Of a stretch of 64,000 bases of DNA, positions 19,122-35,200 are shown one piece after another. The notes under the pieces are model-generated. The model worked only from the letters and a program-made list of their open reading frames with translations, was not told where the DNA came from and searched no databases. The DNA comes from Bifidobacterium aquikefiri (lineage in GTDB: Bacteria > Actinomycetota > Actinomycetes > Actinomycetales > Bifidobacteriaceae). The stretch lies in NCBI RefSeq assembly GCF_002259795.1, contig NZ_MWXA01000003.1, positions 248,001-312,000 on the forward strand. The letters run 5' to 3'. The translations under genes were made by a program, and so were the position numbers. Numbering within the stretch: the stretch's first letter is position 1; every line of letters begins with the position of its first letter.

Positions 19122-19850
19122 GTGTCATTTTCACAGTCGTTAATTCAGGAAGCCCAGCCATTGCTTGAGGCCAACGAACAGTGCCAGTTCATTCAGGATG
19201 TAGTTCACGATACGCTCTCGCCCGAGGCGATGAACTATTACATTCAGCAGGACTTGCACTACACCGATGCTGAAACCTATGTGCAGACGCAGTTGATTGC
19301 AAGGAGCAGGGCGGTCGCAGACCAACAGCTCTTTACTGGACAATTGAATTCGCATCTCCACACAGTCAATGCTCTGTATGAAAGCATGACCAAGACGCTT
19401 GGTGTCGATTGGTCGCAGCAGCGTGGCCAAGCCATGCAACCAGTGACCTACTTCTATCGTGAACATCTGCTGTCGCAAACCCGTGATGGCGATGTGCTCG
19501 ATATGCTGACGCCGTTCCAGGCAGGGATCTGGATGTATGTCGAGCTCGGCAAATATTTGGGCTCAACCGGTCAAGTCAAGCCCGGCAATAATTTCCATCA
19601 GTGGGTAATTGACGTACAGGAGCCATCGTTGGCCGGTCCTGATGGCATATCGGCCAAGTTCTTCGCCGTGATGGATAGGGATGCTGAGCATGCAAGCGAG
19701 GAACAGCTCAAGCGCGCTCGCGAGAATTTCCACCGCAGTTGTCTCTTCGAATGGTATTTCTGGGAAGCCGCTGCCAGACAGCTCACCTGGGACGACTTTG
19801 AAAGCCATGTGTTTGAGGGGAGTGGTTTGCAGGGGATTGGGTTGAAGTAA
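19122..19850 (+). CDS. tenA: TenA/THI-4-family protein (thiaminase II-like)
   Basis: 242 residues starting at GTG 19122 behind AAAAGGGG. The all-helical TenA fold is recognisable: FIQDVVHDTLSPEAMNYYIQQDLHY near the N-terminus, the PVTYFYREHLL and FQAGIWMYVELG helices, and the C-terminal FEWYFWEAA with the conserved Glu. TenA enzymes salvage degraded thiamine by hydrolysing the aminopyrimidine; some also cleave thiamine. At the position of the usual active-site Cys (LPC-x-W-x-Y in Bacillus TenA) this protein has Phe in TPFQAGIW, which points to the Cys-less TenA_E-like group. The TPP riboswitch upstream supports a thiamine-related job. Confidence 0.85.
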   Translation: MSFSQSLIQEAQPLLEANEQCQFIQDVVHDTLSPEAMNYYIQQDLHYTDAETYVQTQLIARSRAVADQQLFTGQLNSHLHTVNALYESMTKTLGVDWSQQRGQAMQPVTYFYREHLLSQTRDGDVLDMLTPFQAGIWMYVELGKYLGSTGQVKPGNNFHQWVIDVQEPSLAGPDGISAKFFAVMDRDAEHASEEQLKRARENFHRSCLFEWYFWEAAARQLTWDDFESHVFEGSGLQGIGLK

Positions 19851-20343
19851 TGTGAGAAACATCGGGTCTTAGTGTTGATGCGCTTCGAATCGGTGGAGGT
19901 CCGGCCTTTTAGGTTGTAGAATTTGGGCACTTTTGTGCGATTGACGCTTTCGTTTTTCGCTGTTTTTCCTGCTGCTTCGATTTTTGTGGCCTGTTTCTGA
20001 GATATCTCGAGTATTCGTTCTGGCTGTTGTTGGTATGAAGCCATTCTTGAAGCGTCGAATGCCTTAGTTCTCACCACCCGGCAACAAAAATCATATCGTG
20101 GTACCGTGTTCAGCTAACGATGGCGGGATATGCACCTGCCGGGTGTACAAGTTGCGCTTTCAGAGTCACTTTTTTGCACGTTGTGCTTTGCAAGTCGCTT
20201 TTCGGCCGATATTGCCCAAAAACCGACTTGCAATGCACAGCGTGCACAGCGATAGCGGTGGTGCACGCTGAAGAGACTGTATTCTGTTGTCGTAAAGCTG
20301 CGTCATGGAATACTGTGTGCCACATCAAGAAAGCGAATACACA
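19851..20343. other. intergenic region before the defence island
   Basis: No convincing gene is seen in 493 bases. The second half holds a long imperfect inverted repeat (20175-20246), reported separately. Base composition and word use differ from the tenA side, so the left boundary of the island probably lies here. Confidence 0.5.
20175..20246. repeat. 23-bp imperfect inverted repeat upstream of hsdR
   Basis: The left arm 20175-20197 and right arm 20224-20246 pair at 21 of 23 positions (core TTGCAAGTCG with CGACTTGCAA) around a 26-base loop. It could be a terminator-like hairpin, a regulator site, or an end of a mobile unit. No matching copy was noticed at the right end of the island. Confidence 0.6.
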
Positions 20344-23300
20344 ATGAGTGCTGATTTCGAAAATCTGAAATGCGAAAGTGATTTTGAAAGGCAGCTCATT
20401 GAATGCCTTGCAAGCATGAGAAGCAGCACAACAAATATCAGCGATGTGCATCGTGGCAGCTACCTGAACAAGGCCATGAGCTGGCAATACCTGCCAAAGG
20501 TAAAGACGACCGAGCAGCTGTGGGCTAACTTCAAGGCAATCTTGGAGCAGCACAATCAGAACACACTCGATCAGCCTTTGAGCAAGGCAGAGTTTAAGCA
20601 AGTGAAGAATGCGATCAACGCTTTGCAAACTCCTTATGAAGCCGGCCAATTCCTCTATGGTCTCAATGGCGTTTCACAGATTGAAATCGATCTTGATGAT
20701 GGACGGCACGTGTTTCTGACCGTCTTCGATCAGAAGCAGATTGGTGCGGGAGATACCATCTATCAGGTCGTGAATCAGATTGAACGGCAACCTGTGATTG
20801 CAGGCAAACCGAAGCGCGTTTTTGACACCACACTGCTCATCAATGGCCTTCCGACCATCCAGATCGAAGAGAAATTCGGCGCGCATGACATTGACGAAGC
20901 GCTGAATCAGATGCGCCAATATGCCGATGAGCACCAGTATCACGACATTTTCTCAACCTTGCAGATATTGGTTGCAATCACGCCGCATAACGTGAAATAT
21001 ATGGCGAACACCACCACCGACCAATTCAACACGGACTTCGCCTTCAACTGGCAGCGTGAGCATGATCATAAACCTGTGCATGATTGGCGCGAATTTGCAG
21101 ATTCGATGCTGTCGATCCCCATGGCTCATCAGATGGCAACAAATTACATGATTTTGGACGGCACACAGAACAAGCAGACGCTCAAGGTCATGCGGCCATA
21201 CCAGGTGTATGCAACGCGCAGAGTCATCGACAAGCTCAAGCATGTCGATTACGAATTCGGTCAGAACAAAGTAGGATACATCTGGCATACCACCGGCTCA
21301 GGCAAGACAATTACAAGCTTCAAGACGGCTTGGCTTGCGAGCAGACTGCCAAATGTGGACAAGGTCGTGTTTGTGGTTGATCGAATTGCCCTGACGAAGC
21401 AGACCATGCAGAATTACAAGGCATATGATCCAGATTCGAGCGAAGAATCCTTGGGAAGCGTGCTGGATGCGAGCAATACGAGCGATCTGAGTCGAAAGCT
21501 CAAGACCAAGGACAACAGCATCATCATCACCTCAGTGCAGAAGCTCGACACCCTGGTGAAACGGAAAAGCTTCAAGGCGCCAGACAAGAACATTGTGTTC
21601 ATCGTCGATGAAGCCCATCGCTCCACTGGTGGCGACTCGTTCAAGAACATTCAGAGTGTTTTCAAACATTCTGCCTGGGTTGGTTACACCGGCACTCCGA
21701 TGTTCGAAGATTCAACGAATGGCACCTTGACCGAGCAGGTGTTTGGCAAGCTTCTTCACTCCTACACGATTCGTGAGGCAATCGCAGATCATAACGTGCT
21801 TGGGTTCAAGGTTGATTTTGAAACCACCATCGACGATAAGGAGATGAGAGAGCATTATCTGCGAGACTTCTTTAGATCGAAGTTTCCATCATGGTCGGAT
21901 GAAGACATTCAGGCGAAAATCAACAACCTGACTCAGGACGACATGGACGATACCGTTGAAAGCAGTTTCTATGACGAGAACGAGGATCATGTGCGGCTCG
22001 TCGTTGAAGACATCTTTGCGAAGTGGCAGAACCGATCGAACGAGGGCAAATACAACGCCTTGCTCACCACGCATGTTGGTGGGAATGGAGCGAGCACGCC
22101 AATGGCGATGATGTATTTCAACGAGTTCCAGCGCGTCAATGCAGAACATGCAAAGAACGGCAGTCTGACGCTCAAGGTTGCTGTGACTTTCAGCTCCAAC
22201 ACATCAAACAACGGCACGATGCTTGAGACGAATCGTGGCTTATTCACTGCCATGCAAGCTTATAACCAGGAGTTCGGCACGTCATTCGACATGTCAGATG
22301 TTGGCGGGTACACGCAGGATGTGATTTCCAGGCTTGACAGAACCGCGAACGATGGCCAGTTCCTTGACATAGTAATCGTTGTAGATCAACTGTTGACCGG
22401 CTTTGATGCGCCTGAACTCAATACCCTCTATGTTGACCGGACGCTTAAGAATGCCAACCTGATTCAGGCTTATTCACGCACGAACCGCATTGCTGACATG
22501 CAGGACAAGCCTTTCGGACGCATCATCAACTATCGCTGGCCTGCACAGAACGAAAAGCTGATGAACAAGGCGCTCGCCATCTATGCAAATAACGATTCCG
22601 CGAATATTTCCGACGAAAAGCTTAAGGAGCTGAACGAAGAGACTGGAGTCATCGCGAAATCCTTCGACAAGGAGTTAAGAAACGTTCAAGGTAAGGTTGA
22701 GAAGCTGCGCAGCCTGACCAGCGACTTCTCTGTGCTGCCGCCTTCTGAGAAGCAGCAGGAGTTCATGGCTCAGTTGTTGCGTGAATACAATGCCGGAGTG
22801 GCGAAGCTGAAGCAATATACGCCGGAGCAACGGGCTGCCGACTCAGATGGTGCGGATGGTTCCGATGATGCCAACAGCACAGATGACACGAATGAATCGG
22901 AAGTGAAAGGTTTCGATTACAGCAATCCTGACAAACTGGTAAGGGCACTAGGCATGACTTCCGATGAGGAAGCGCTACTCACCACGGTTTTTGCCAACCA
23001 ACTTCGGGAGAATCTGGCACAAAAGAAGCATGTGCCATACACCCAGATTCAGCTACGCATGACACATGTGAAAGACGTGAAGGTGAATTACGACTGTTTG
23101 ACCGAGCTGGTTCAGAATCTGTTGAATCAGGTTCATGAAGGCAAGCATGAGGATGCGCAAGAAACCCATGAGAAGATTCGTCAATTTGCCCACGGCTTGG
23201 ATAATCGCAGTCATGCCAAGGAGATCATGAACGCAGCTGAGGCGATCTCGAGTGGTTTGTTCCCACCGGACAGCATCGGGTTTGAGTATCCTGCGCAGCT

Positions 23301-23619
23301 CAAAGACAGTGACGACATTATTCGTCAGGCAAACGAGTTGAGTCTTGACCGCATGCTGTTGGACTTCCGCGTGAAATGGGGAATAACCGACATCATCACC
23401 AGCGCACAGATGCAAGAATTGTTCGCGCACCACCATTACGGCAAACAGGACTTGGACGATGCCGGTCAAATCACCGACATCCTCACCAAGGCATGCGATC
23501 GCAACCAATACACGGCGCTCGCCCATGATGAATCAATCCAGGCACTCAGCAAAATCAAATACCGCAACCAACTCCGCGCCGCAATCAATGCCCTAGCAGA
23601 TACCCAGGTGGTTGGATGA
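20344..23619 (+). CDS. hsdR: type I restriction enzyme, R (HsdR) subunit
   Basis: 1091 residues from the ATG at 20344; an in-frame ATG at 20305 would add 13 residues. The N-terminal endonuclease domain shows the PD-(D/E)xK strand pattern LLINGLPTIQIEEK (about residues 164-177). The SF2 translocase follows: HTTGSGKT (about 318-325), DEAHRS (about 421-426), GYTGTP and QAYSRTNRI. An acidic Asp/Ser-rich linker (about 840-860) precedes the C-terminal helical domain that docks on the methylase. The protein cuts unmethylated foreign DNA after ATP-driven translocation, in complex with HsdM and HsdS. First gene of the island. Confidence 0.95.
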   Translation: MSADFENLKCESDFERQLIECLASMRSSTTNISDVHRGSYLNKAMSWQYLPKVKTTEQLWANFKAILEQHNQNTLDQPLSKAEFKQVKNAINALQTPYEAGQFLYGLNGVSQIEIDLDDGRHVFLTVFDQKQIGAGDTIYQVVNQIERQPVIAGKPKRVFDTTLLINGLPTIQIEEKFGAHDIDEALNQMRQYADEHQYHDIFSTLQILVAITPHNVKYMANTTTDQFNTDFAFNWQREHDHKPVHDWREFADSMLSIPMAHQMATNYMILDGTQNKQTLKVMRPYQVYATRRVIDKLKHVDYEFGQNKVGYIWHTTGSGKTITSFKTAWLASRLPNVDKVVFVVDRIALTKQTMQNYKAYDPDSSEESLGSVLDASNTSDLSRKLKTKDNSIIITSVQKLDTLVKRKSFKAPDKNIVFIVDEAHRSTGGDSFKNIQSVFKHSAWVGYTGTPMFEDSTNGTLTEQVFGKLLHSYTIREAIADHNVLGFKVDFETTIDDKEMREHYLRDFFRSKFPSWSDEDIQAKINNLTQDDMDDTVESSFYDENEDHVRLVVEDIFAKWQNRSNEGKYNALLTTHVGGNGASTPMAMMYFNEFQRVNAEHAKNGSLTLKVAVTFSSNTSNNGTMLETNRGLFTAMQAYNQEFGTSFDMSDVGGYTQDVISRLDRTANDGQFLDIVIVVDQLLTGFDAPELNTLYVDRTLKNANLIQAYSRTNRIADMQDKPFGRIINYRWPAQNEKLMNKALAIYANNDSANISDEKLKELNEETGVIAKSFDKELRNVQGKVEKLRSLTSDFSVLPPSEKQQEFMAQLLREYNAGVAKLKQYTPEQRAADSDGADGSDDANSTDDTNESEVKGFDYSNPDKLVRALGMTSDEEALLTTVFANQLRENLAQKKHVPYTQIQLRMTHVKDVKVNYDCLTELVQNLLNQVHEGKHEDAQETHEKIRQFAHGLDNRSHAKEIMNAAEAISSGLFPPDSIGFEYPAQLKDSDDIIRQANELSLDRMLLDFRVKWGITDIITSAQMQELFAHHHYGKQDLDDAGQITDILTKACDRNQYTALAHDESIQALSKIKYRNQLRAAINALADTQVVG

Positions 23620-23831
23620 GTGGCTGGAAGAACAGCGATGAACGATGGCGAAATTGGGCAACTGTCAACTATCGGTTGACAGCTCAACAGTGGGATTTTG
23701 CGGCTGAGATGTTTGTCAATCTGATGCCGAGTGGAAACATCATTTACGATAGTGATGGACAATGTGCAGTGGTATGCAACCATCAGTTGCGAACCACTTT
23801 GGAATTGGAAAATACAGGCACATGGCTATGA
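23616..23831 (+). CDS. small ORF overlapping hsdR end, unknown
   Basis: 71 residues. The ATG overlaps the hsdR stop codon (ATGA), a usual arrangement for translational coupling, and the frame runs to within 33 bases of hsdS. The composition is Trp/Asn-rich with no membrane segment or known motif. It may be a genuine accessory peptide, or an unselected frame that happens to be open. Confidence 0.4.
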   Translation: MSGWKNSDERWRNWATVNYRLTAQQWDFAAEMFVNLMPSGNIIYDSDGQCAVVCNHQLRTTLELENTGTWL

Positions 23832-23864
23832 GTGGAAGCGTCGAGCAGGTGAAAGAAGAGAACA

Positions 23865-25088
23865 ATGACAGGCAATGATGTACGAGTGCCCAAGCTCCGC
23901 TTTCCTGGGTTCACTGAGCTGTGGAAGCGCAGAAAAATTGGCGATTATTATTTTTTTAAAAATGGTTTGAATAAAGGCAAAGAATATTTTGGACAAGGTA
24001 CCCCAATAGTTAACTTTGTGGATGTGTTCCACAATAGAGGGTTGACAGCGCTGGAGCTAAAAGGAAGAGTTCGGCTTTCTGATAAGGAAATAAAGAATTT
24101 TGAAGTTGGAAAAGGAGATTTATTCTTTACTAGAACATCTGAAACTATTGATGAGATTGGATATCCTTCGGTAATGCTTGATGTCCCTACCGACACCGTT
24201 TTCAGCGGATTTGTTCTTCGTGGCAGAGCTTTGAATGACGATCCTTTAACGAACGTATTCAAAAGGTATGTGTTTTTTACGCAGTCATTTCGCAAGGAAA
24301 TGATAAACAAAAGTTCAATGACTACTCGAGCTTTGACCTCTGGAACCGCATTGAGAGCAATGAACTTTAACTTTCCCTCAGATAAAAAAGAGCAAAGCCA
24401 GATTGGAATTTTTTTTGGAACAATCGATTCTTTGATAGAGAAACAAGAACGGAAGATTGCTGATGTGAAGAAGCTCAAAGAGGGTTTGCTTCAGAAAATG
24501 TTTCCGAAGAATGGCGAGCTTCTTCCAGAGATTCGTTTTCCCGGGTTTTACAGAACGTGGCAGAAAGAAGAATTTTCAGATTTGCTAAAGCGCCGAACTA
24601 TTTTTTCCTCAAATGATTCTCAGAATCCACGTGTTGAGTATGAGGATATTATTTCTGGAGAAGGGCGTTTGAATAAGAATCTAGATAATAAATTGAGTGA
24701 TAAAAATGGCTTGTACTTTCAAAAAAACGATATTATTTTTGGGAAGCTTCGTCCATATTTACAAAACTGGTTGTTATCTGATTTTGAAGGAGTGGCTGTT
24801 GGGGACTGGTGGGTGTTGCACCCGATACAGATAAATGCCAGATATGCTTATTCGTTCATTCAGACAGCAATGTTCAGAGAGGTGTCGAATATAACAACCG
24901 GAACGAAGATGCCTAGGTCTGACTGGAAGTTGGTATCTACGATGAAAGTTCCTTTTCCAAGTCCAGAAGAACAAGCAAAAATCGGGGAATTCTTCGCATC
25001 GATCGATCGCCTCATAACCCTCAACGAATGCAAGTTGGAGCATCTGCAGCAGCTCAAGAAGGCGTTGTTGCAGCAGATGTTTGTGTGA
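23865..25088 (+). CDS. hsdS: type I restriction enzyme specificity (HsdS) subunit
   Basis: 407 residues, with GAAAGAAGAG before the ATG. The protein has the two-fold repeat of HsdS: each half begins with a target-recognition domain introduced by RFPGF (VPKLRFPGF and LPEIRFPGF) and ends with a conserved coiled-coil helix (KEQSQIGIFFGTIDSLIEKQ and EEQAKIGEFFASIDRLITLN). Both target-recognition domains are markedly A+T-rich compared with the helices, a usual sign of domain exchange. It sets the DNA sequence recognised by HsdR and HsdM. Confidence 0.93.
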   Translation: MTGNDVRVPKLRFPGFTELWKRRKIGDYYFFKNGLNKGKEYFGQGTPIVNFVDVFHNRGLTALELKGRVRLSDKEIKNFEVGKGDLFFTRTSETIDEIGYPSVMLDVPTDTVFSGFVLRGRALNDDPLTNVFKRYVFFTQSFRKEMINKSSMTTRALTSGTALRAMNFNFPSDKKEQSQIGIFFGTIDSLIEKQERKIADVKKLKEGLLQKMFPKNGELLPEIRFPGFYRTWQKEEFSDLLKRRTIFSSNDSQNPRVEYEDIISGEGRLNKNLDNKLSDKNGLYFQKNDIIFGKLRPYLQNWLLSDFEGVAVGDWWVLHPIQINARYAYSFIQTAMFREVSNITTGTKMPRSDWKLVSTMKVPFPSPEEQAKIGEFFASIDRLITLNECKLEHLQQLKKALLQQMFV

Positions 25089-25103
25089 CTGGAAGGAACC
25101 GAT

Positions 25104-25784
25104 ATGACATACAAGACACTTTCGCAGGCTTATGCCGACGATGTTCTGGTTCGTCTCGCATACAATTCCAGCGCGATTGAGGGAAACACGATTTCTCTGT
25201 CAGAAACCGTGTCGATCATTCTGGAAAACACGATTTCGACCAGCTCTGGGCATTCGATACGCGAATTCTATGAGATTGAGAACCATAAGCAAGCATTTGC
25301 ATACATGCAGGACCTGCTCGAATCGAAGGAAATGCTTTCCATTCAGATCGTGCAACGATTCCATGCGTTGCTGCTTGAGCGTTTGCAACATGACAACGGT
25401 CAATTCAAGCAGCATGCCAATGCGATTGTTGGCGCTGAATTTCAGACCGCTAGCCCTGCTCAAACCCCGCAGCTTATGCAGCAGTGGGTCAGCAACGCCA
25501 CATATAGGCTTGAATCAGCGCAGGATCCAGAAGCTTTCTGCATGGCTTTGGCAGAATTGCATATCGAGTTTGAACGCATTCACCCATTTTCTGACGGGAA
25601 CGGGCGAACGGGCCGCTTGGTGCTGCTCTATCTGGCACTGCTCTATATGGGCGCGGCAATCCTGGTGAACACCGAGCGGCGAGCCGAATACATACGTCTC
25701 CTAGCCGAGCAGAATGCACAAGGCTTAGGGCAGATGTGCCTCGAATCATTGAAATATGAACAATCACGAGCAAAGAAATTTTAG
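25104..25784 (+). CDS. Fic-family AMP-transferase, class II, inside the hsd operon
   Basis: 226 residues, GGAAGGAACC before the ATG, 15 bases after hsdS. The full Fic motif HPFSDGNGRTGR starts at His160, so AMP transfer (or another NMP transfer) to a target hydroxyl should be possible. The N-terminal autoinhibitory motif of class II Fic proteins is present as S22-x-x-x-E26-G27 (SSAIEGN), whose Glu blocks ATP binding until relieved. No separate antitoxin is needed. It lies between hsdS and hsdM with tight spacing (15 and 17 bases), so it should be made together with the restriction enzyme. Its target is unknown. Confidence 0.92.
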   Translation: MTYKTLSQAYADDVLVRLAYNSSAIEGNTISLSETVSIILENTISTSSGHSIREFYEIENHKQAFAYMQDLLESKEMLSIQIVQRFHALLLERLQHDNGQFKQHANAIVGAEFQTASPAQTPQLMQQWVSNATYRLESAQDPEAFCMALAELHIEFERIHPFSDGNGRTGRLVLLYLALLYMGAAILVNTERRAEYIRLLAEQNAQGLGQMCLESLKYEQSRAKKF

Positions 25785-25801
25785 GTACAAGGGAAAATCT
25801 C

Positions 25802-27430
25802 ATGGCAAACCATACGACACTGCAAACGGTAACCAGTCAACTTTGGGCAATGGCGAACGAGCTTCGCGGAACTATGGATGCGTCTGAATACAAGAACTAC
25901 ATTCTTGCATTCATGTTCTATCGCTATCTGTCTGAGAATCAAGAAAAATATCTGGTCAGCAACAACGTCATTGACATTGCAACAGGCCAGTCTGTCAACG
26001 AGGCATATGCTGCCGAAGCACAAGGCGATGATTTGGCAGATTATCTGACCGATATCTCTTCAAGTCTCGGCTATGCCATCGCACCGGCGGATACATGGCA
26101 GTCGTTGATGGACAAAATCGACAACAGTCTCGTGATTCCCAGCGACTATCAGACCCTATTTGACAATTTCAATAAGAATTCCGAGCTCAACAAAGATGCA
26201 GTACGGGATTTTCGGGGAGTTTTCAACGACATCAATCTTGGAGATTCACGGCTCGGTTCGTCCACCAATGAGCGTGCAAAGTCTCTGAACAGAATCGTCA
26301 AACTTATCGATAGCATCGAATACAAGGACGAACAAGGTCGAGACATTCTTGGAGACATCTATATCTATCTGATTGGCAAGTTCGCCGCATCTGCGGGCAA
26401 GAAGGGCGGCGAGTTCTATACGCCTCACGAAGTGTCGATGATTCTGGCGAAGCTGGTCACGAATGGCGTCAAGAAGTCAGACGGAACCTTCTCCCTGTAT
26501 GATCCAGCCTGCGGTTCGGGCTCTCTGCTGTTGACCGTGCAGGATGAGCTTCCAGGTGGAGACCGGCAGGGTGCGGTGAAGTTCTACGGGCAGGAGCTCA
26601 ACACCACGACATACAACCTTGCGCGCATGAATCTGATGATGCACGGTGTGGATTACAACAACATGAACCTATCCAACGCAAATACGCTGGAAACTGACTG
26701 GCCTGACGGCCCCGACCCAGCAACTGGCAAGGACCAGCCGCGATCCTTCGATGCTGTCGTTGCCAATCCGCCATATTCTGCACATTGGGACAATGATCCC
26801 GCGAAGCTCAAGGATTCTCGCTTCAGCCCCTTCGGTGTGCTCGCTCCTAAGTCAAAGGCCGATTATGCCTTCATTCTTCATGGCCTGTATCACCTGAATA
26901 ATACCGGCACGATGGCAATCGTTCTGCCTCATGGCGTGCTGTTCAGGGGAGCAGCGGAAGGCAAGATTCGCAAGGCGCTCATCAAGTCGCAAGGCTCGCA
27001 CGCCCAAGGTAACTATCTTGACGCGGTTATTGGTCTGCCCGCGAACCTGTTCTACGGCACAAGCATTCCCACCTGTATTCTGGTGTTCAAGAAGAATCGC
27101 AGAACCAACGATATTCTCTTCATCGACGCAAGCAAGGACTTCGTCAAAGGCAAGAACCAAAACACGCTCAGCAGCGAAAATATCGACAAGATCATTGAAA
27201 CGTATCGCAATCGCACCGACATTGACAAATACGCCCATGTCGCCACGTTCAAGGAAATCGAAGACAATGAATTCAACCTCAACATTCCGCGCTACGTGGA
27301 TACCTTCGAGGAAGAGCCTCCCATCGACATCGACGAAGTGAACAGGCAACTCAAGCAGGACAACGCCGAGATCGCAGAGTTGGAGGCAAAGATCAACGAG
27401 CAGCTGCGAATTCTCGGAGGTGAGGTGTGA
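25802..27430 (+). CDS. hsdM: type I restriction enzyme methylase (HsdM) subunit
   Basis: 542 residues with AAGGGA before the ATG. An N-terminal helical domain (residues 1-140) precedes the Rossmann methyltransferase domain. The SAM-binding motif is DPACGSGSLL (about 235-244) and the adenine-N6 catalytic motif is NPPY (about 321-324). The C-terminal helices contact HsdS. It methylates host DNA at the site chosen by HsdS and protects it from HsdR. The gene order R-(orf)-S-fic-M is unusual; most type I loci keep hsdM next to hsdS. Confidence 0.95.
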   Translation: MANHTTLQTVTSQLWAMANELRGTMDASEYKNYILAFMFYRYLSENQEKYLVSNNVIDIATGQSVNEAYAAEAQGDDLADYLTDISSSLGYAIAPADTWQSLMDKIDNSLVIPSDYQTLFDNFNKNSELNKDAVRDFRGVFNDINLGDSRLGSSTNERAKSLNRIVKLIDSIEYKDEQGRDILGDIYIYLIGKFAASAGKKGGEFYTPHEVSMILAKLVTNGVKKSDGTFSLYDPACGSGSLLLTVQDELPGGDRQGAVKFYGQELNTTTYNLARMNLMMHGVDYNNMNLSNANTLETDWPDGPDPATGKDQPRSFDAVVANPPYSAHWDNDPAKLKDSRFSPFGVLAPKSKADYAFILHGLYHLNNTGTMAIVLPHGVLFRGAAEGKIRKALIKSQGSHAQGNYLDAVIGLPANLFYGTSIPTCILVFKKNRRTNDILFIDASKDFVKGKNQNTLSSENIDKIIETYRNRTDIDKYAHVATFKEIEDNEFNLNIPRYVDTFEEEPPIDIDEVNRQLKQDNAEIAELEAKINEQLRILGGEV

Positions 27431-27575
27431 GAAGGCGTTGTCTTCACAGGACAAGTAAGACAAGAAGCTGAGCCGTCGGATGGCTCCTTGTAAGTAGACA
27501 TGTCATTCGCTCAACTTGTGTGAGCTGTATATATACTGACATTGAAGGACATCCTCTTAGTTGATAGGAAAACTC

Positions 27576-28421
27576 ATGAGTGATCTGATGGGCCATAGTA
27601 ATTCCAATGATGAAATGCTTGCCATTGTTTTGAACAAAGCTGTTCAAATGCCGGGCATGAAGGTTGACCGCGAAGCTTTTCTGCGTAAACAGTTCAAGTC
27701 AGAATCGCATGAAATGATAACGGCAATTGTTGAAAAAGGGCCCATTGAGGCCAATTTTTCAAGAGATAAGCTCCGCATAAAGGCGAGAAGAATATTTCTT
27801 GACCGCACTCTTACCTCAGCGGGATTGTCATTCGCTGCGGGGCTTCCCGGTGGATTCGCAGCGGGTATAACTATTCCTGCAGACACGCTTCAATTCTTTA
27901 CGATGGCCCTGCGGGCAGCTCAAGAGGTGGCGTATCTTTATGGCGAGGATGATTTTTGGAATGGCGAGATTTCTGACGATGAACAGGTGACTGGCCAGTT
28001 GATTTTGTATTGCGGTGTAATGTTTGGTGCTTCTGGAGCTTCATCTGCTGTAAGAGTTGTTTCTTCACAGCTGGCCAAAGCTGCGCTTAAACAATTGCCT
28101 CAAAGAGCGCTCACCAAGGGTGTCATATATCCAATGGTCAAATCTGTTGCGAAATTACTGACTGTTCAGATGACGAAAGGTATTTTTGCAAAAGGAGTCT
28201 CAAAGGCGATACCTGTCGTAGGTGGGATTGTGTCCGGAAGCATTACTCTGGTGACAATGCGACCGATGGGATTGCGTCTGATAAATGTGTTGGATCATTC
28301 ACACTTTGCTTATTCAGATGAACAACTCGAGAACGACTTGAGTATCTTGAACAATGTTGGAAGGTCAAGTAGTGCTTCGGGGCGCGATATTCCAGATGTA
28401 GTGGTTGGCGAAATCGTTTAG
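27576..28421 (+). CDS. EcsC-like protein in the defence island
   Basis: 281 residues from the ATG at 27576, with AGGAAAA upstream. The centre is hydrophobic and Gly/Ala-rich: AGLPGGFAAGITIPADTLQFFTMALRAAQEVAYLYG fits the EcsC-family core (shown here only as context: AGLPGGFAAG, then IPADTLQFF, then AYLYG), and a second hydrophobic part (KAIPVVGGIVSGSIT) follows. EcsC-like proteins are membrane-associated and of poorly known function. It sits alone between the type I operon (145-base gap with its own promoter possible) and mcrB, so a defence role, for example membrane disruption, can be proposed but is inference. Confidence 0.6.
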   Translation: MSDLMGHSNSNDEMLAIVLNKAVQMPGMKVDREAFLRKQFKSESHEMITAIVEKGPIEANFSRDKLRIKARRIFLDRTLTSAGLSFAAGLPGGFAAGITIPADTLQFFTMALRAAQEVAYLYGEDDFWNGEISDDEQVTGQLILYCGVMFGASGASSAVRVVSSQLAKAALKQLPQRALTKGVIYPMVKSVAKLLTVQMTKGIFAKGVSKAIPVVGGIVSGSITLVTMRPMGLRLINVLDHSHFAYSDEQLENDLSILNNVGRSSSASGRDIPDVVVGEIV

Positions 28422-28622
28422 CTATAGCCTTGCTTTCTATCGCAGCGGGCGGGCTTGCCCATGCAGAAAATTCCCACGCAAATCTGACTTTTTAACAGCA
28501 AATATGAGCAGTATCTTGTCTCAACTAAACTTCGAGCTCCGCTTTTGAACAGTTTTTATTAGTTTATTCATCGTGGGTATTCTTTTTCTAGATCACTTAT
28601 CGTATTTAGGAGATGTTTTGTC

Positions 28623-30899
28623 ATGGGCGATAATTATCAATGGGAAACTTTCTATACGGATTTGGCGCAGAAGCTACTCGAGTATCGAGATCGCAGGAGT
28701 GAACTTTTCGACGTGATACGTGGATTGGCCAAAGACCAGCCGTTGATGAACTATTTCCATTTTGAGCGTGAAGATTGGTGGGGTTCTCAAGATCATCAGA
28801 TTGATCCATTTTCTGTGATGGCGGCAATGAACAGAGGGACTACCGATGAGAACAGGACTGCCATTGCGAAACTCTATGCGAAGGCCTTTGATATTACATC
28901 CACAGTTCCCACAGAATTCGTTGGTATTCCAGTACTCGACAATAGAAAATCATTTTTTGCCGGTGTAAACGAGATGTGGGAATTGTTTATTATCGCCATG
29001 AACGTTCCACAAGATGGGCAACTGCCATCCAACTTTGAAGATTCTTTCAATTCGGTCATTTCCTTAAGTGGCAACGGTATTGGCATGGTTTCGATGGCAT
29101 TGTTCTGGGTTCGTCCGCATGTCTTCATGCCTCTTGAAACCACGTCTCGCGGATATATTGCCAAGCATTATGACATCGATACAACAGGAATTCGGAAAGC
29201 CTCCCAATATGTGCAATTCTTGTCTGATTTTCGAGACAAGATAGTTACTCAAACCCCAGAATTAGGCTTTCCGGAACTATCTCAGAAAGCATGGGTGGAA
29301 TTCAATCAGCATGATGCCTCGCCGTCTCAAGGCAACGTTGCAACGACGACTCCGAAGAAAAACCTAGAAGATGCTGCTGATGTGCCGAACAACAATACCG
29401 ACAAGACGCCCACTGAAACGGAAATGGGAAAGAACATCATTCTCTATGGCACGCCTGGCACAGGAAAAACATACAGCACCATGCAATATGCGGTTGCAAT
29501 CATAGAGCACAAAGATATTTCAGTAATTCAACAGGAGCAATACTCCGATGTTTTTGCTCGTTATAGAAGGTATAAAGAAGCCGGACTTATAGCATTTACA
29601 ACTTTCCATCAATCCATGGGCTATGAGGAGTTTATCGAGGGAATTCGCCCAGTTTTGGATGATGATGAAACTGGAGAATCTCATTCAGAAATATCTCACG
29701 AAATTCATGACGGCATATTCAAAGAGTTCTGCAACAAGGCTGGAGCTCCAATTTCCAAGAGTGGCAATGATGATCTTGGTTTGAATAAGAATCCGCGCGT
29801 GTGGAAGGTGTCGCTCGAAAATACAGGAGATAATGGAACAAGAACAGAATGCTTGGCAAATGGGCATATCAGAATTGCTTGGGACGAATACGGAGAATCT
29901 GTATCTGATGAAATTGATTTTCCCCGAGGCGGAAAAGTGGTTCTGAACACTTTCTATAACCGCATGCAGATTGGCGATATCATATTTTCTTGCTTCTCAA
30001 GCCGAACCATTGATGCGATTGGTGTAATCACTGGCGATCCAGAATGGCATGACGAGTATGACAAATTCAAACGACTTCGAACCGTCAGATGGCTCGCGAC
30101 CGGTTTACACGAAGACATTGTCGGCATCAATAATGATAAGGCAATGACTCTTTCGACCGTATATGCACTCTCCGTTACGGTCACTGATGCCATATCGTTA
30201 CTCAAGAGAGTGAAACCGGGATCGGTGAGACAGGATATTGGCAATCAAGATCGGGTATTTATCATTGACGAGATCAACAGAGGAAATATTTCAAAAATCT
30301 TTGGTGAACTCATTACGCTCATCGAGACGAACAAACGAATCGGTGCTCGGGAGGAGAGCAGGGCTGTCCTTCCATATTCTGGCGATAATTTCGGTGTGCC
30401 CAATAATGTGTACATTATTGGAACGATGAACACGGCAGACCGTTCAATTGCGCTTATCGACACAGCTTTGCGCCGTAGGTTTGATTTTATCGAGATGGTC
30501 CCTCAATCAAGTGTTTTGCATCATACGACGATTGGGATCATTGATCTCTCGAAGCTGCTGGATACTCTGAACGCCAGAATTACAGCTCTACTTGACCGTG
30601 AACATACCATCGGCCAAGCTTATTTTCTTCCGCTCGTTGATCGACCGAGCATGAAGCAATTGGGAAACATCATGGAATTCAAGATCATGCCACTATTACA
30701 GGAGTATTTCTATGATGATTACCATAAAATTCAGCTCATACTTGGTGATAACCAGAAGAACAATGATGAGGATCGCTTCGTGCAATTTGTCGAAGCTGTG
30801 ACTTCACTCTTTGGTTCAGATGAGAACGAAACAGCAGACTATTACACAATAAACCGACAAGCATTTACACGAGCTGAAGCCTATGCATACCTTTCATAA
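28623..30899 (+). CDS. mcrB: McrB-type AAA+ GTPase with PUA/EVE-like insertion
   Basis: 758 residues. Residues 1-230 form a helical N-terminal domain with Trp/Phe-rich segments, probably the DNA-recognition part. The AAA+ motor has Walker A GTPGTGKT (about 276-283), Walker B VFIIDEINRG (about 545-554), the McrB signature MNTADRS (about 601-607) and arginine fingers in DTALRRRF. Between Walker A and Walker B lies an extra domain of about 90 residues (about 390-475) with PUA/EVE-like features: NPRVWKVSLE, GDIIFSCFSS and AIGVITGDPEW. Such domains read modified bases. Together with McrC it should cut modified foreign DNA. Confidence 0.9.
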   Translation: MGDNYQWETFYTDLAQKLLEYRDRRSELFDVIRGLAKDQPLMNYFHFEREDWWGSQDHQIDPFSVMAAMNRGTTDENRTAIAKLYAKAFDITSTVPTEFVGIPVLDNRKSFFAGVNEMWELFIIAMNVPQDGQLPSNFEDSFNSVISLSGNGIGMVSMALFWVRPHVFMPLETTSRGYIAKHYDIDTTGIRKASQYVQFLSDFRDKIVTQTPELGFPELSQKAWVEFNQHDASPSQGNVATTTPKKNLEDAADVPNNNTDKTPTETEMGKNIILYGTPGTGKTYSTMQYAVAIIEHKDISVIQQEQYSDVFARYRRYKEAGLIAFTTFHQSMGYEEFIEGIRPVLDDDETGESHSEISHEIHDGIFKEFCNKAGAPISKSGNDDLGLNKNPRVWKVSLENTGDNGTRTECLANGHIRIAWDEYGESVSDEIDFPRGGKVVLNTFYNRMQIGDIIFSCFSSRTIDAIGVITGDPEWHDEYDKFKRLRTVRWLATGLHEDIVGINNDKAMTLSTVYALSVTVTDAISLLKRVKPGSVRQDIGNQDRVFIIDEINRGNISKIFGELITLIETNKRIGAREESRAVLPYSGDNFGVPNNVYIIGTMNTADRSIALIDTALRRRFDFIEMVPQSSVLHHTTIGIIDLSKLLDTLNARITALLDREHTIGQAYFLPLVDRPSMKQLGNIMEFKIMPLLQEYFYDDYHKIQLILGDNQKNNDEDRFVQFVEAVTSLFGSDENETADYYTINRQAFTRAEAYAYLS

Positions 30900-32172
30900 A
30901 ACCTACACGATACGAGAATATGAGGGTTTTGCGCGACAGAAGACACTTGGAAAATACCAGGCTTTGCCCAGCGCAACCTTTGACGCGCTAGAGCAGCTGG
31001 TGATCGCTTCTGGAAGTGAGCGCGCCGACGATGCTCTTGCACTATTCTCATTAAGTGCGAAAAAAGGTTTAGGAACGGTGATCACTGCACAGAATTATGC
31101 AGGAATCGTGGCTTTATCAACGGGAGATGTCATCGAAATATTGCCCAAAATAGCGGGTAAAGGTATTCCAACACAGGATTCAAGGCATGTCTTTCTTGAG
31201 ATGTTGAAAACAGTCGAAACCGAGAAATTCAAAAGTTTGGGCAATGCCCATCTGGATATCGATTCGCTTCCGCTGCTGGATGTATTCATTATGATGTTTC
31301 TTAGCGCAGTTTCCAAGATCGTCAAGCAGGGTGTGCGACGGTCATACGAGCCGATTGAAGATAATCAGAATTTCTATAGGGGAAGACTACTGGTATCTGC
31401 AAATATTGCTCAAAATCTGTGGAGGCGTGACCGGTTCTTTCTGAGACATGATGAATTTACCTTGAATGTTCCAGAGAACAGGCTCGTGAAAACAACGATG
31501 AGATTTGTTATGGGTCTGACCCAGAGTCAACGCATCCAGAAGCAAGGAGCACAGCTGCTCACATATTTTTCTGGAGTCGAGTTTTCGAAGAATATTGGAA
31601 CCGATTTTCAGCATTGTCATGGTGACCGTACCATGCATGGTTATCAGACCGTGCTCTGTTGGTGCAAGGTTATCTTGTGCGGCCAATCCTTTACACCTAT
31701 TTCTGGCGAAAATGTGGCTCTCTCCTTGCTGTTCCCCCTTGACAAGCTCTTTGAGAGCTATGTTGCCCGAATTGCTCAACGTGTACTCGCCCCTGTTGCA
31801 CTGTTGCGCGTTCAAGACCATCGGCTCAGCCTTTTTACTCAGCCTTGTAGAAGCTTCATTCTCAGACCCGATCTCGTCGTTGAATGGGAAGGCGGCACGG
31901 CGATTCTGGATACGAAATGGAAAATTCTCGCTCAATCTTCGAGAAATCACGGTATTGCAGAGTCAGATATGTATCAAATGTTTGCGTATGCCAAGAAATA
32001 TAATGCTCGAAGTGTAACGCTGCTCTACCCTCAGTCGGATTGGATCGACGAGCAAGGTTTATCATATGTGGGCGAAGATGATGTCGCCATCAAGGTCAGA
32101 GCCATTGACATGATGGAGGCACGGAACAGTATCAAACATATTCTTGAAAGTTCTATGTCGGATCCGGCGTAG
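30883..32172 (+). CDS. mcrC: McrC-type endonuclease subunit
   Basis: 429 residues; the start overlaps the end of mcrB by 17 bases, so the two proteins are translated together. The N-terminal part matches the McrC family (IVALSTGDVIEILPKI, YRGRLL, HDEFTLNVPENRLVKTTM). The C-terminal nuclease domain shows the PD-(D/E)xK pattern: Asp in RPDLVVEW and Asp-Thr-Lys in AILDTKWK (about residues 328-347). It is the cleaving partner of the McrB motor. The gene ends 42 bases from the convergent GH65 gene, which marks the right border of the island. Confidence 0.92.
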   Translation: MHTFHKTYTIREYEGFARQKTLGKYQALPSATFDALEQLVIASGSERADDALALFSLSAKKGLGTVITAQNYAGIVALSTGDVIEILPKIAGKGIPTQDSRHVFLEMLKTVETEKFKSLGNAHLDIDSLPLLDVFIMMFLSAVSKIVKQGVRRSYEPIEDNQNFYRGRLLVSANIAQNLWRRDRFFLRHDEFTLNVPENRLVKTTMRFVMGLTQSQRIQKQGAQLLTYFSGVEFSKNIGTDFQHCHGDRTMHGYQTVLCWCKVILCGQSFTPISGENVALSLLFPLDKLFESYVARIAQRVLAPVALLRVQDHRLSLFTQPCRSFILRPDLVVEWEGGTAILDTKWKILAQSSRNHGIAESDMYQMFAYAKKYNARSVTLLYPQSDWIDEQGLSYVGEDDVAIKVRAIDMMEARNSIKHILESSMSDPA

Positions 32173-32214
32173 TGCCTCCAGCGAGCTCTGCTCTGCCGTA
32201 TCGGAGAGACTTGT

Positions 32215-35200
32215 TCAGCCATGCAACGCTTGGAATGGCAGCGGTGTCTGCCCTTTCTGCGGCTTCAGAGTTGTTGATGCACAGGGCAACGAATGAACGG
32301 CATTCGAAGTGACGAATGATTCACCAGAGGAGTCTGCTACTTGCTGAGCTCCCAGCTGCTCAATGTTGTTCACCCCTTTCCCATTCCCGACGGCGCTGAA
32401 GATGCTCACTTGGAATGCGGCTTTGGATAGATCCTCGTGTTGCAATGCCTCGGCTGGAATGGTCAGCACAATGTCGCGTTGCTGGCGAACACTCAACGAT
32501 GCGCGTGCGATGCGTGTTCCATCGGCTGTGAACAGACCGGTTGCACCAATTGCCCCGCTGTGTTCCCGTGGATTCGCGATGGCGACGTACTGCCAGGCTC
32601 CGGCCGTGGTGATGCCTGTGCCTTGAACACCTGGCGCTGCTGCGGTTGACGCGGGAGCATTGCTGCGAATATAGATATGCAAGAGTTGAAGGCTCATGCC
32701 TTCCAAGGCCCAGGGGTTAAGAATCTGACCTTCAATGCTGGTGACGAAGCGAATGTAATTTCCATCCTCAAATACCCTTAACGAACTGAGATCGAATGAG
32801 CCGGGCGTATATGTCTCAGCAGTGGGGAACGCTTGTTGCCGGTCTGCCACATCGGTCTGATCTCTCAAGGTACTGGCAGAAATCGAACCGACCAATCTTC
32901 CATATCCATCATTGGGCAGAGACTGCCGAGTTGCAAAGCTCAGAGGATTGTTCAATGAAGCGATACCTTGGCCAATGACCGTGAGATCACGTCCCTCGGT
33001 CACACTGACCGTGGTGATATCGGGAGATATCTCGATATCGAAGGTACTGCCTTGATAATGCAGACCAGTTACGGTGAGATTCGATAGCGAACTCGGCAGG
33101 ATGGGATTCACCGTCACGCCGTTCATCCTCCACCGCAGTCCGGTGTATCCGTAATAGAATTCCTGCAGGAATCCGCCAGCTCCGGTCAAGAAGGTGAACG
33201 CACTGCCGCCGCCGCGCTCCTCGGTGAACTGGTTGAATGGCCCTCGCATGAATCCGGTTGAACTGCGTTTGGTGTACCACATCGCTTCATCTGCACGGCC
33301 GATTTCTGCCGCGACAATCGAATGTATGGCATCGGTCATCGAAGGACTGGCATCTTCGTTTACCTTGGTTGAGTAGTAGTCAAGATTATTGGCAGTTCGC
33401 TCCAGAGACTGCTCGTTCTCCCAAGGGTAGCTGAGCATGACGGCATCGGCCTGTTTGATGCCAATGCCGTCATAGTTCGCATATTCTTTGGTGACATTGC
33501 GCACAGAATCTTCCGGAATGGCAAAGTTGCCACTGCGTTTGCGCCACTCGGGATTGGCGGTCTCGCCGACAATCGCTGCAGCCTGGCATGCGATTTCCAA
33601 CACTTTGGATGCGGCCAGATTGGTATAGGCGGAGTCGTCTCGACCAATTTCACCGTTGCTGGACCATTCGTCAGGAGGAGTCACATCATCGATGTGATAC
33701 TGATGATCAACGCCTAAGTATGAGCGTGCAATCCAGAAGTCGGCCGAGCCGGCAATGATTCCGTAACCAGTATTGATCAGCCAATCGGTATCTCCGGATG
33801 TCTCATAATATTGCCAGCATGCGAGTGCAATATCCGCCGTGATGTGAATTTCGTGGCCACCGAAGAACAGCGCTGTCGTCTGTTCCTTGCCATTCAGGCC
33901 GCCTTCCCAGGGGAAGCGCAGAGCACTTCCATTGCCGTAGCCATGCTGCCCATAGCTTTGTGTCGCTGGATTCCACTCAGAGATATGTAGCGCATTGAAT
34001 TTGGCCCCATCACTGTCTCCCAGACGATTCGCCCGATATTGCAGCACGGCCTTGGCAATACCGGGATCCTGTGCCAACAACGATGGCCACATCCAGGTTT
34101 CGCTATCCCAGAACACATGGCCGGCGTAACTGTCTGAAGACAATCCCGCTGGTGACGGGGACCAGGGACGTTCCCCGACGCTTGCTAGCAGATAGAATCT
34201 GCTGGCTCGAACCTCACTTTGGAGTAGATCGTCGCCCGAGATAAGAATGTCGCCTTGCCACAGCGCAGCCCATGCTTTATCACTATCGCTTCGAGCGGAG
34301 AGGAAACCGAGGGCGGCAGCCTCGGTTGCAATTGATGCCGCCGCTGCACGTGTGCGTTCAATCGAGTTCGTTGGAACATCCTGATTCGTTGCCAGACCTA
34401 CGAATTTCGTGAATTCATAGGTCTTCCCGACTTCCACCGCGATGCTCAGATGCTGTTCGACAGCATTTGTCATGTCATCGGCAGGGATCATGGAGTTGTC
34501 CGACTGCCTGAGGATCCCTGGACCATCGAGTTGCGAAACGAACGATGCCTGCTGATGAGTGCCGTCAAGCGTGGTCGTCAGGGCAATCTGTCTGGATGAG
34601 GGGTCTGCCCATCTGTCGAATGATGCGTTGCTGGCCGCCTGTGGGTCGAGCACATCCGTAACGGTCACGGTCCTCTCGTCACTGTTCCAGGCAATGGGCG
34701 TGAGCGTGAGGTGAACGAGGCCGAGCTGGTCGTTGGCCCGACTTGGCAACACCGTGTAGTCCACGTCAATCACGTTCCCGGACGGTGATGTCCATCGTGC
34801 ACTGGTGGTTATGGTGCCGTTCTTCATATGCAGTGTTTGACGATAGCCACTGAGGTTATGGCTGGCTGGCGAGTCGGCGCTTTTCGCTGCAATCTGGTGG
34901 TTGGACTCACCTGTCGCGTGCGCATTGTCGTGGGACTCAAAGGCATCATCAAATGTCCCAGAGGCATCGGCCACCTTCAATCCTGTCCATGCCGGGCCAC
35001 CCACGCGCCATTGATTGCTGTCGCTGGTGGCAGTGTAGAAACCCTGTATCTGGAATGATGTCGGAACGTGCGATTTGCTGAAACCCTGGCCCTGAGCGGG
35101 GATTCTCGCGGCAAAATAGCCATTGCCGGTATATGTCGGATAATACTGACCATTGAACGGGTTAGTCGCCGAAATTGTCCATGAGTCATTCGAATTGCTG

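Follow-up and report, generated by a model that had tools for sequence, protein, structure and literature searches.

A composite restriction block with an embedded fic gene and an EcsC-like gene in Bifidobacterium aquikefiri

The 64 000 nucleotides of Bifidobacterium aquikefiri analyzed here (contig NZ_MWXA01000003.1, positions 248 001 to 312 000 of the forward strand; hereafter, the window) contain, between positions 20344 and 32172, seven plus-strand frames that are identified by open frame analysis and family matches as hsdR, hsdS, fic, hsdM, an EcsC-like gene, mcrB and mcrC. The block is real and intact; its parts are known and their arrangement mostly so. Seven frames of this kind in succession are judged, without a computed probability, not to be a chance pattern. 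The features, in window coordinates, are the following.

20344..23619, plus strand: hsdR, type I restriction subunit with an EcoR124-like C-terminus, 1091 amino acids (TIGR00348, HSDR_N, SWI2_SNF2, EcoR124_C)
23616..23831, plus strand: open frame of 71 amino acids overlapping the hsdR stop, a putative gene, possibly translationally coupled
23865..25088, plus strand: hsdS, specificity subunit (Methylase_S; PADLOC Specificity_I, 259 bits; G+C content at third codon positions, GC3, 0.41)
25104..25784, plus strand: fic, 226 amino acids, class II-type, PADLOC PDC-S04 (PF02661, 76 bits; motifs)
25802..27430, plus strand: hsdM, N6-adenine methyltransferase subunit (TIGR00497, 430 bits, cut-off 243; NPPY at residue 322)
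27561..28421, plus strand: EcsC-like gene, TTG start as called, PADLOC PDC-S30 (PDLC04989, 312 bits)
28623..30899, plus strand: mcrB, GTPase (AAA_5; Walker A at residue 276, Walker B at 549, NTAD at 603)
29784..30227, plus strand: specificity-type domain, EVE-like by resemblance, inside the McrB GTPase in the interval between Walker A and Walker B (domain common to loci L153 and L154)
30883..32172, plus strand: mcrC, nuclease subunit (PF10117, 285 bits; PD...DTK from residue 329)

All three subunits of a type I restriction-modification (R-M) system are present with intact frames and motifs, HsdR scoring 341 bits against TIGR00348 (cut-off 285) and carrying a DEAH motif at residue 422; a longer hsdR start at 20305 is possible. 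The type IV system is represented by the GTPase motifs of McrB and the PD-(D/E)xK motif of McrC. An earlier note, made from the letters of this DNA, had described a type I R-M system with a nested fic, an EcsC-like gene and McrBC, and this description is borne out by the frames, the family matches and the intact motifs, as is its claim of unrelated flanks: a thiamine-type protein, TenA, lies upstream, with ABC transporter genes farther upstream, and a GH65 sugar enzyme lies downstream on the opposite strand, convergent with the block. The genes are on a single strand, as the note states, with gaps of 245, 15, 17, 130 and 201 bp in order, followed by a 17-bp overlap of mcrB and mcrC; those of 130 and 201 bp surround ecsC. 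No structured RNA was detected at gathering score within 19800-32300, and the 71-amino-acid frame has no homolog in Pfam or in the plasmid collection and none that is convincing in three related operons.

The type I system shares the HsdR, HsdM and HsdS families and the EcoR124_C domain with the EcoR124-type (type IC-like) enzymes but differs from them in the gene order R-S-fic-M and in the lack of long inverted repeats and, unlike five of the eight related operons described below, of an adjoining integrase or second hsdS. A phase-variable hsdS in the window was rejected: neither a long inverted repeat nor an integrase or an additional hsdS was seen within the block, and elsewhere in the genome a Methylase_S locus turned up only on contig C16. 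The Vibrio cholerae VPI-2 type I system with the embedded TgvAB (PMC11411939) similarly packs a type I enzyme with genes targeting modified phage DNA, but its type IV part is described as GmrSD-like and embedded, whereas the window McrBC follows the operon.

McrB matches its relatives in PDB with an E-value of 3e-53 but scores only 121 bits against PRK11331, below the cut-off of 637; its first 260 residues stay below the cut-off of every Pfam family (HMG_box, 17.4 bits against 25.4), and no McrB match was found in viral contigs. The interval from Walker A to Walker B includes a domain, of residues from about 388 to 535, that recurs as an insert in L153 and at the N-terminus in L154 (27% over 84 amino acids, E 1.4e-6). 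A three-sequence profile of this insert reaches PDB 2g2x, an EVE protein, at E 1.3 only, behind two Cas7 chains at 0.1. Because specificity domains inserted in the McrB GTPase have been described (Bell et al., PMC11090510), the insert may be read, by resemblance, as an EVE-type modified-base reader. The McrBC systems with a specificity domain in the GTPase (PMC11090510, PMC7641849) are like that of the window in the McrB motifs, the NxxD signature, the McrC nuclease and the inserted or N-terminal domain, but the window insert is too diverged for Pfam, its EVE identity being a matter of resemblance. In Bell et al. (PMC11090510), the Escherichia coli-type McrBC branch is stated to often adjoin type I R-M.

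The history of the block can be gleaned from its flanks and its composition. TenA, at E <= 1e-40, is found in 2 of the 27 genomes of the genus, namely, the genome of the window and G015. In G015, TenA (78%) and the GH65 protein (65% over 913 amino acids) are about 1.9 kb apart and the block is absent, the frames kept by the frame picker in the interval being a MazG-like frame and a 435-amino-acid hydrophobic frame without a Pfam match. Because the flanks lie so close together in G015, the block is most simply read as an insertion at the TenA-GH65 site. The distribution of its genes is patchy, with McrB absent at E <= 1e-40 from all 38 other relatives and the window-type Fic absent at E <= 1e-25 from all 26 other genomes of the genus, and no integrase or long repeat that would reveal the mode of arrival was found at the block. 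The block is a composite of two compositions: the GC3 of hsdR (0.62), fic (0.56) and hsdM (0.62) is near that of the flanks (0.58-0.65), whereas that of hsdS (0.41), ecsC (0.42), mcrB (0.44) and mcrC (0.47) is lower. The composition of hsdS commonly differs, recognition domains being exchanged; hsd and ecsC-mcrBC may have arrived separately.

The Fic protein combines the catalytic motif HPFSDGNGRTGR at residue 160 with the N-terminal inhibitory motif SSAIEG at residue 22, which is the class II Fic AMPylase pattern, HPFx(D/E)GNGRxxR with an N-terminal (S/T)xxxE(G/N), and matches the PDC-S04 model PDLC04840 with 295 bits over positions 3-221 of 227. The PDC-S04 match and the class II motifs are the points of likeness to the PDC-S04/SoFic group, but the protein, with its 226 amino acids, lacks the SoFic C-terminal domain, and assignment to SoFic was rejected, the match (97 bits) being confined to positions 57-242 of 361. 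An antitoxin gene beside fic was also rejected, the gaps of 15 and 17 bp leaving no room for one; nor do the 17 bp before hsdM have room for a small AS1-like gene. SoFic-type proteins are described as toxic AMPylases that protect against phages (PMC12249575), and protection by this class is also reported in PMC11514479; the self-inhibition motifs of the window Fic are compatible with a role in dormancy or killing.

The nearest relatives of the window Fic in the plasmid collection, where 152 records match at E <= 1e-20, come from Jeotgalibaca, Enterococcus, Carnobacterium and Listeria (46-51% identity), compared with 37-40% for the best-scoring other matches among 396 genomes of its own phylum. 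These nearest relatives are plasmid genes without hsd neighbours, and the window fic was probably transferred from a plasmid-type lineage into the slot that it occupies in the hsd operon. The genome of the window (G000) has six Fic-domain places above the cut-off, on contigs C1, C6, C12, C14 and C16; hsd genes lie within 1.5 kb only at the window fic.

The neighbourhoods of Fic relatives were surveyed for the HsdR, HsdM, HsdS, McrB and McrC families, the resulting counts standing without a background rate. In 9 of the 152 plasmid neighbourhoods, examined by annotation and profile up to 8 kb on each side, no hsd or mcr genes were found (0/9); these fic genes sit near ParA-like, relaxase or toxin-antitoxin genes. 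On plasmid L151, one gene is named only ‘restriction endonuclease', and in L035 a ResIII/DEAD helicase is next door. The chromosomal sample of 25 loci (5 from the phylum and the best-ranked 20 from the class of a Faecalibacterium genome) includes two with restriction genes nearby, detected by profiles and confirmed with Pfam; tblastn with the window proteins recovered at these 25 loci only an McrB-like piece in L074.

L148:7842-10459: longer PDC-S04 Fic gene, then a 243-amino-acid frame that matches nothing in Pfam and, 0.8 kb downstream of fic and at the end of the contig, the beginning of an hsdR-type gene (HSDR_N, ResIII)
L074:9545-16272: PDC-S04 Fic followed on the same strand by an LlaJI-type R-M system with two C5 methyltransferases, an McrB-like AAA_5 protein and RE_LlaJI

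Six of the 25 chromosomal loci, being on contigs shorter than 12 kb, carry little weight as negatives. Since the held-out controls recovered HsdR and HsdM of L162 and McrB of L163 but missed HsdS of L162 and McrC of L163, the HsdS and McrC negatives are weak as well. The plasmid gene tables are incomplete, and all 9 Fic loci, along with the 13 plasmid loci of the EcsC-like gene discussed below, were also searched with the profiles. Fic as a conserved partner unit of R-M systems is not borne out by 2/25 and 0/9 for the families surveyed, and the family appears to be at most loosely tied to restriction.

Loci related to the hsd part were collected with HsdM at E <= 1e-150, which is matched in 8 of the 256 genomes of the class of G229 (same phylum), perhaps Coriobacteriia, and all eight were inspected. 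HsdM is 71-74% identical to its counterparts in these eight operons, and HsdR is 64-67% identical to those in the six where it is visible. The S-M junction, which in the window holds fic, is visible in all eight (in G122, only via the last 17 residues of hsdS). Five operons have nothing there (G962, G998, G1046, G229 and G122), and three carry a Schlafen AlbA_2 protein (G985, G970 and G175). The R-S junction is visible in six operons, empty in five of these and occupied in G229 by a 335-amino-acid Fic with a winged-helix tail. The Schlafen and Fic junction proteins have a common C-terminal winged-helix tail (38% over 84 amino acids, E about 1e-11) and can be read as swapped heads on one tail; in L113 and L114, Asn-Val-Gly-type repeats are seen by eye before this tail. 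The principal features of these loci are as follows.

L113:6925-7932, L114:756-2360, L124:6873-8549 and L127:9421-11073: Fic and Schlafen AlbA_2 junction proteins with the common tail
L113, L115, L124, L126 and L127: integrase and extra hsdS pieces after hsdM

The integrase (identified by eye) and extra hsdS pieces downstream of hsdM, both lacking in the window, are seen at five of the eight loci. This combination is a usual sign of invertible specificity and suggests it for these relatives. With the window queries, neither a window-type Fic nor an EcsC-like gene nor McrBC came up at the eight loci, the exceptions being, in G229, the different Fic and an McrB match at chance level (E 0.93); the three inspected plasmid loci with relatives of HsdM at 59-62% (L157, L158 and L160) likewise yielded no Fic to these queries. 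Because its relatives carry a Schlafen-type gene (3/8 S-M junctions) or another Fic (1/6 R-S junctions), the hsd operon looks like a loading slot, to judge by these sequences.

A fic gene in this very position is known from Histophilus somni 2336, where the order is hsdR-Abi-hsdS-Fic-hsdM (PMC3339403); the likeness lies in the gene position, and that operon differs in having Abi between R and S, and an integrase and second hsdS after hsdM. One figure legend of this article is the only report of fic between hsdS and hsdM that was found in the literature, as far as the accessible text of the sources goes; the accessible parts of PMC11062135 and PMC10782964 place no fic in an hsd operon, and a literature search on Bifidobacterium returned nothing recognizably about the window locus.

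One explanation of this arrangement is that Fic guards the type I enzyme, staying silent as long as HsdRMS is intact and, once released by a phage anti-restriction protein, AMPylating a host target and stopping the infection, similarly to PrrC. The latter is the anticodon nuclease in the EcoprrI operon. The tight packing (gaps of 15 and 17 bp) inside an EcoR124-type operon, the toxin-like genes that other members of the operon family carry at junctions, the hsdS-fic-hsdM order in H. somni and the L148 locus, in which a distant Fic relative is followed by one frame and then the hsdR start, are consistent with such guarding, as is the anti-phage activity of DarTG2 embedded in a type I operon (PMC12255303). 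However, Fic relatives occur without hsd at 24 of the 25 chromosomal loci (one of these with the LlaJI-type system instead) and at all nine plasmid loci, and the class II inhibitory motif gives Fic its own silencing; we give little credence to the guard. Less probable still is the general form of this idea, in which the operon family would be a dock for guard toxins (Fic, Schlafen AlbA_2 and Fic with a winged helix-turn-helix), each of which would watch over the type I enzyme and act once it is disabled by phage anti-restriction proteins, different heads being exchanged on a common tail for sensing or DNA binding. Should the slot genes indeed guard the enzyme, the PrrC-like principle would be widened to AMPylases and Schlafen proteins.

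The EcsC-like protein matches PDC-S30 (312 bits) but falls below the gathering score of EcsC (PF12787; 10.4 bits against 30.4), as does its Rhodococcus relative (21.1 bits). Five plasmid relatives are annotated as ‘EcsC family protein', and PDC-S30 also fits relatives from Bifidobacterium, Faecalibacterium, a viral contig, an Anaerolineae genome and three plasmids (including those of Lactococcus and Rhodococcus); the SHOCT-like tail seen by eye in the relatives L024 and L156 is absent from the window protein. Hydropathy reveals two glycine-rich hydrophobic stretches, 87-107 and 212-234, and the fold model is all-helical, with medium confidence (mean predicted local distance difference test score, pLDDT, of 66). 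The best match of the model in PDB is at E 0.74, with none below 0.7, and the top hits, including pore-like ones, were not used; association with the membrane is a guess.

Among the other genomes of the genus, three encode the EcsC-like protein (56-57%), and in both of those with inspected neighbours, the gene adjoins an aldo/keto reductase (by eye). None of the 11 chromosomal or viral loci contains hsd or mcr genes according to the profiles; L014-L016, which duplicate L021-L023, are counted once, and L019 is kept despite yielding no repeat EcsC-like tblastn match. The plasmid sample, 13 of the 36 records (L170, a duplicate of L163, was left out), is different: restriction genes are found at 5 loci and none of hsd or mcr at 8. 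Two loci have type I R, M and S genes (L028 and L162, the latter with M confirmed by Pfam) and two have a lone hsdS (L032 and L161), so that 4 of the 13 have type I genes no farther than 8 kb away; in one, mcrB-mcrC directly precedes the EcsC-like gene.

L163:4927-8744 (Rhodococcus DK17 plasmid pDK1): consecutive same-strand genes for McrB, McrC and an EcsC-like protein of class PDC-S30

In this run, the Pfam scores are 88 bits for AAA_5 and 62 bits for McrBC (PF10117), and PDC-S30 scores 364 bits; the pDK1 mcrB is diverged (AAA_5, profile E 4e-38), and a gap of 180 bp precedes ecsC. Apart from a near-copy of the run in L170 (JS3073), this is the only McrBC neighbour found for the EcsC-like family outside the window. 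The earlier note had proposed co-occurrence in other genomes as a check on the roles of both accessory genes; co-occurrence turned out weak for Fic and mixed for the EcsC-like gene (0/11 and 5/13), and the association of the latter with restriction on plasmids, a raw count without a background, is suggestive only. Small lactic plasmids often carry hsd genes.

It is possible, but improbable, that restriction systems, McrBC in particular, have a working partner in the EcsC-like protein, which would perform, for example, a membrane-acting step after DNA cutting. Its gene precedes mcrB in the window and has an mcr-like composition, the pDK1 run with its JS3073 near-copy repeats the neighbourhood, and the type I genes within 8 kb at four plasmid loci point the same way, but restriction genes are found at none of the 11 chromosomal or viral loci, and the plasmid count lacks a background. 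Alternatively, both fic and the EcsC-like gene might be passengers, that is, plasmid maintenance or stress genes without an anti-phage role here. This possibility, which we consider unlikely although deserving of more weight than the partnership, accords with the ParA-like, relaxase and toxin-antitoxin neighbours of the plasmid fic genes, the aldo/keto reductase beside two Bifidobacterium EcsC-like relatives and the absence of restriction genes from all 11 chromosomal or viral EcsC-like loci. It also accords with a negative test of PDC-S04, for which no detectable defence was found in the native host E. coli NILS69 (PMC12409345). Conversely, both genes are PADLOC defence candidates, the motifs are retained, SoFic relatives protect (PMC12249575, PMC11514479) and 5 of the 13 plasmid EcsC-like loci have restriction neighbours. 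For Fic, an independent, self-inhibited back-up toxin appears the most likely role, followed by that of a passenger, with the type I guard third.

We favour, with somewhat more confidence than doubt, the reading of the block as a composite, horizontally acquired restriction island that combines layered restriction with a Fic back-up toxin and an EcsC-like accessory. It builds on the genes and their motifs, the absence of the block from G015, the variability of the slot and the relatives of Fic, from which we infer the activities, the trigger of Fic and any cooperation between the parts. HsdM2S would methylate host DNA at the site read by HsdS, and HsdR would translocate and then cut DNA without that methyl mark. 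McrB, an NxxD-type GTPase with an inserted putative modified-base reader, would cut DNA bearing modified bases together with McrC, so that phages evading the type I enzyme through modified DNA would meet McrBC; the attack on both unmodified and modified DNA expected by the earlier note is supported, as following from the families. Fic would be a class II AMPylase that is self-inhibited and therefore needs no antitoxin gene, most likely an abortive back-up toxin in a variable slot of the hsd operon rather than an R-M subunit. The EcsC-like protein, which recurs beside restriction genes on plasmids, would most likely be a membrane-associated accessory. An island with a synergistic kill step, in line with the possible dormancy or kill step of the earlier note, is plausible but no more than that.

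Several observations weigh against this reading. Most Fic relatives and all chromosomal EcsC-like relatives lie away from the searched restriction families, and the PDC-S04 test was negative, as noted above. The McrB insert has no Pfam match, and a fold model of this piece by itself reached a mean pLDDT of just 37. The absence of the block from G015 could also reflect a loss there. A consensus scan of the block found no excess of promoter-like sites (14, compared with 16.5 in shuffles, standard deviation 4.5) or terminator-like sites (12, compared with 11.9, standard deviation 3.5). The gaps of 130 and 201 bp set apart hsd, ecsC and mcr and leave room for promoters, and because of this room and of scan sites no commoner than in shuffles, a single transcription unit for the block is possible but unproven.

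The occurrence of both accessory genes among PADLOC candidates, fic between hsdS and hsdM, type I R-M with McrBC, and inserted McrB specificity domains are all known already. What is new is modest: a PDC-S04 Fic inside a Bifidobacterium hsd operon, Schlafen or Fic genes at the junctions of related operons, and the proximity of the EcsC-like gene to McrBC both in the window and in Rhodococcus. The Rhodococcus recurrence offers a testable partner for that candidate. The locus is a clean natural case of layered restriction, directed at unmodified and modified DNA, in Bifidobacterium, with an exchangeable toxin-type gene; mainly, it suggests a reason why such a strain may resist transformation.

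Some further features recur around the relatives. In the related hsd operons, a frame of about 190 amino acids precedes hsdR (L113:3129-3695, L123:3418-3996; that of L113 is without a Pfam match), with a RadC-like gene (by eye) upstream of it in several; no such frame was seen before the window hsdR. In the viral contig L156 (4958-15746), the EcsC-like gene lies amid a Doc-like gene, which is preceded by a small frame, a resolvase (by eye), an SbcCD pair and an AAA_13 protein. On plasmids of lactic acid bacteria, the EcsC-family gene is directly followed by a small site-specific integrase in three (L028, L029 and L032) of the first seven neighbourhoods inspected.

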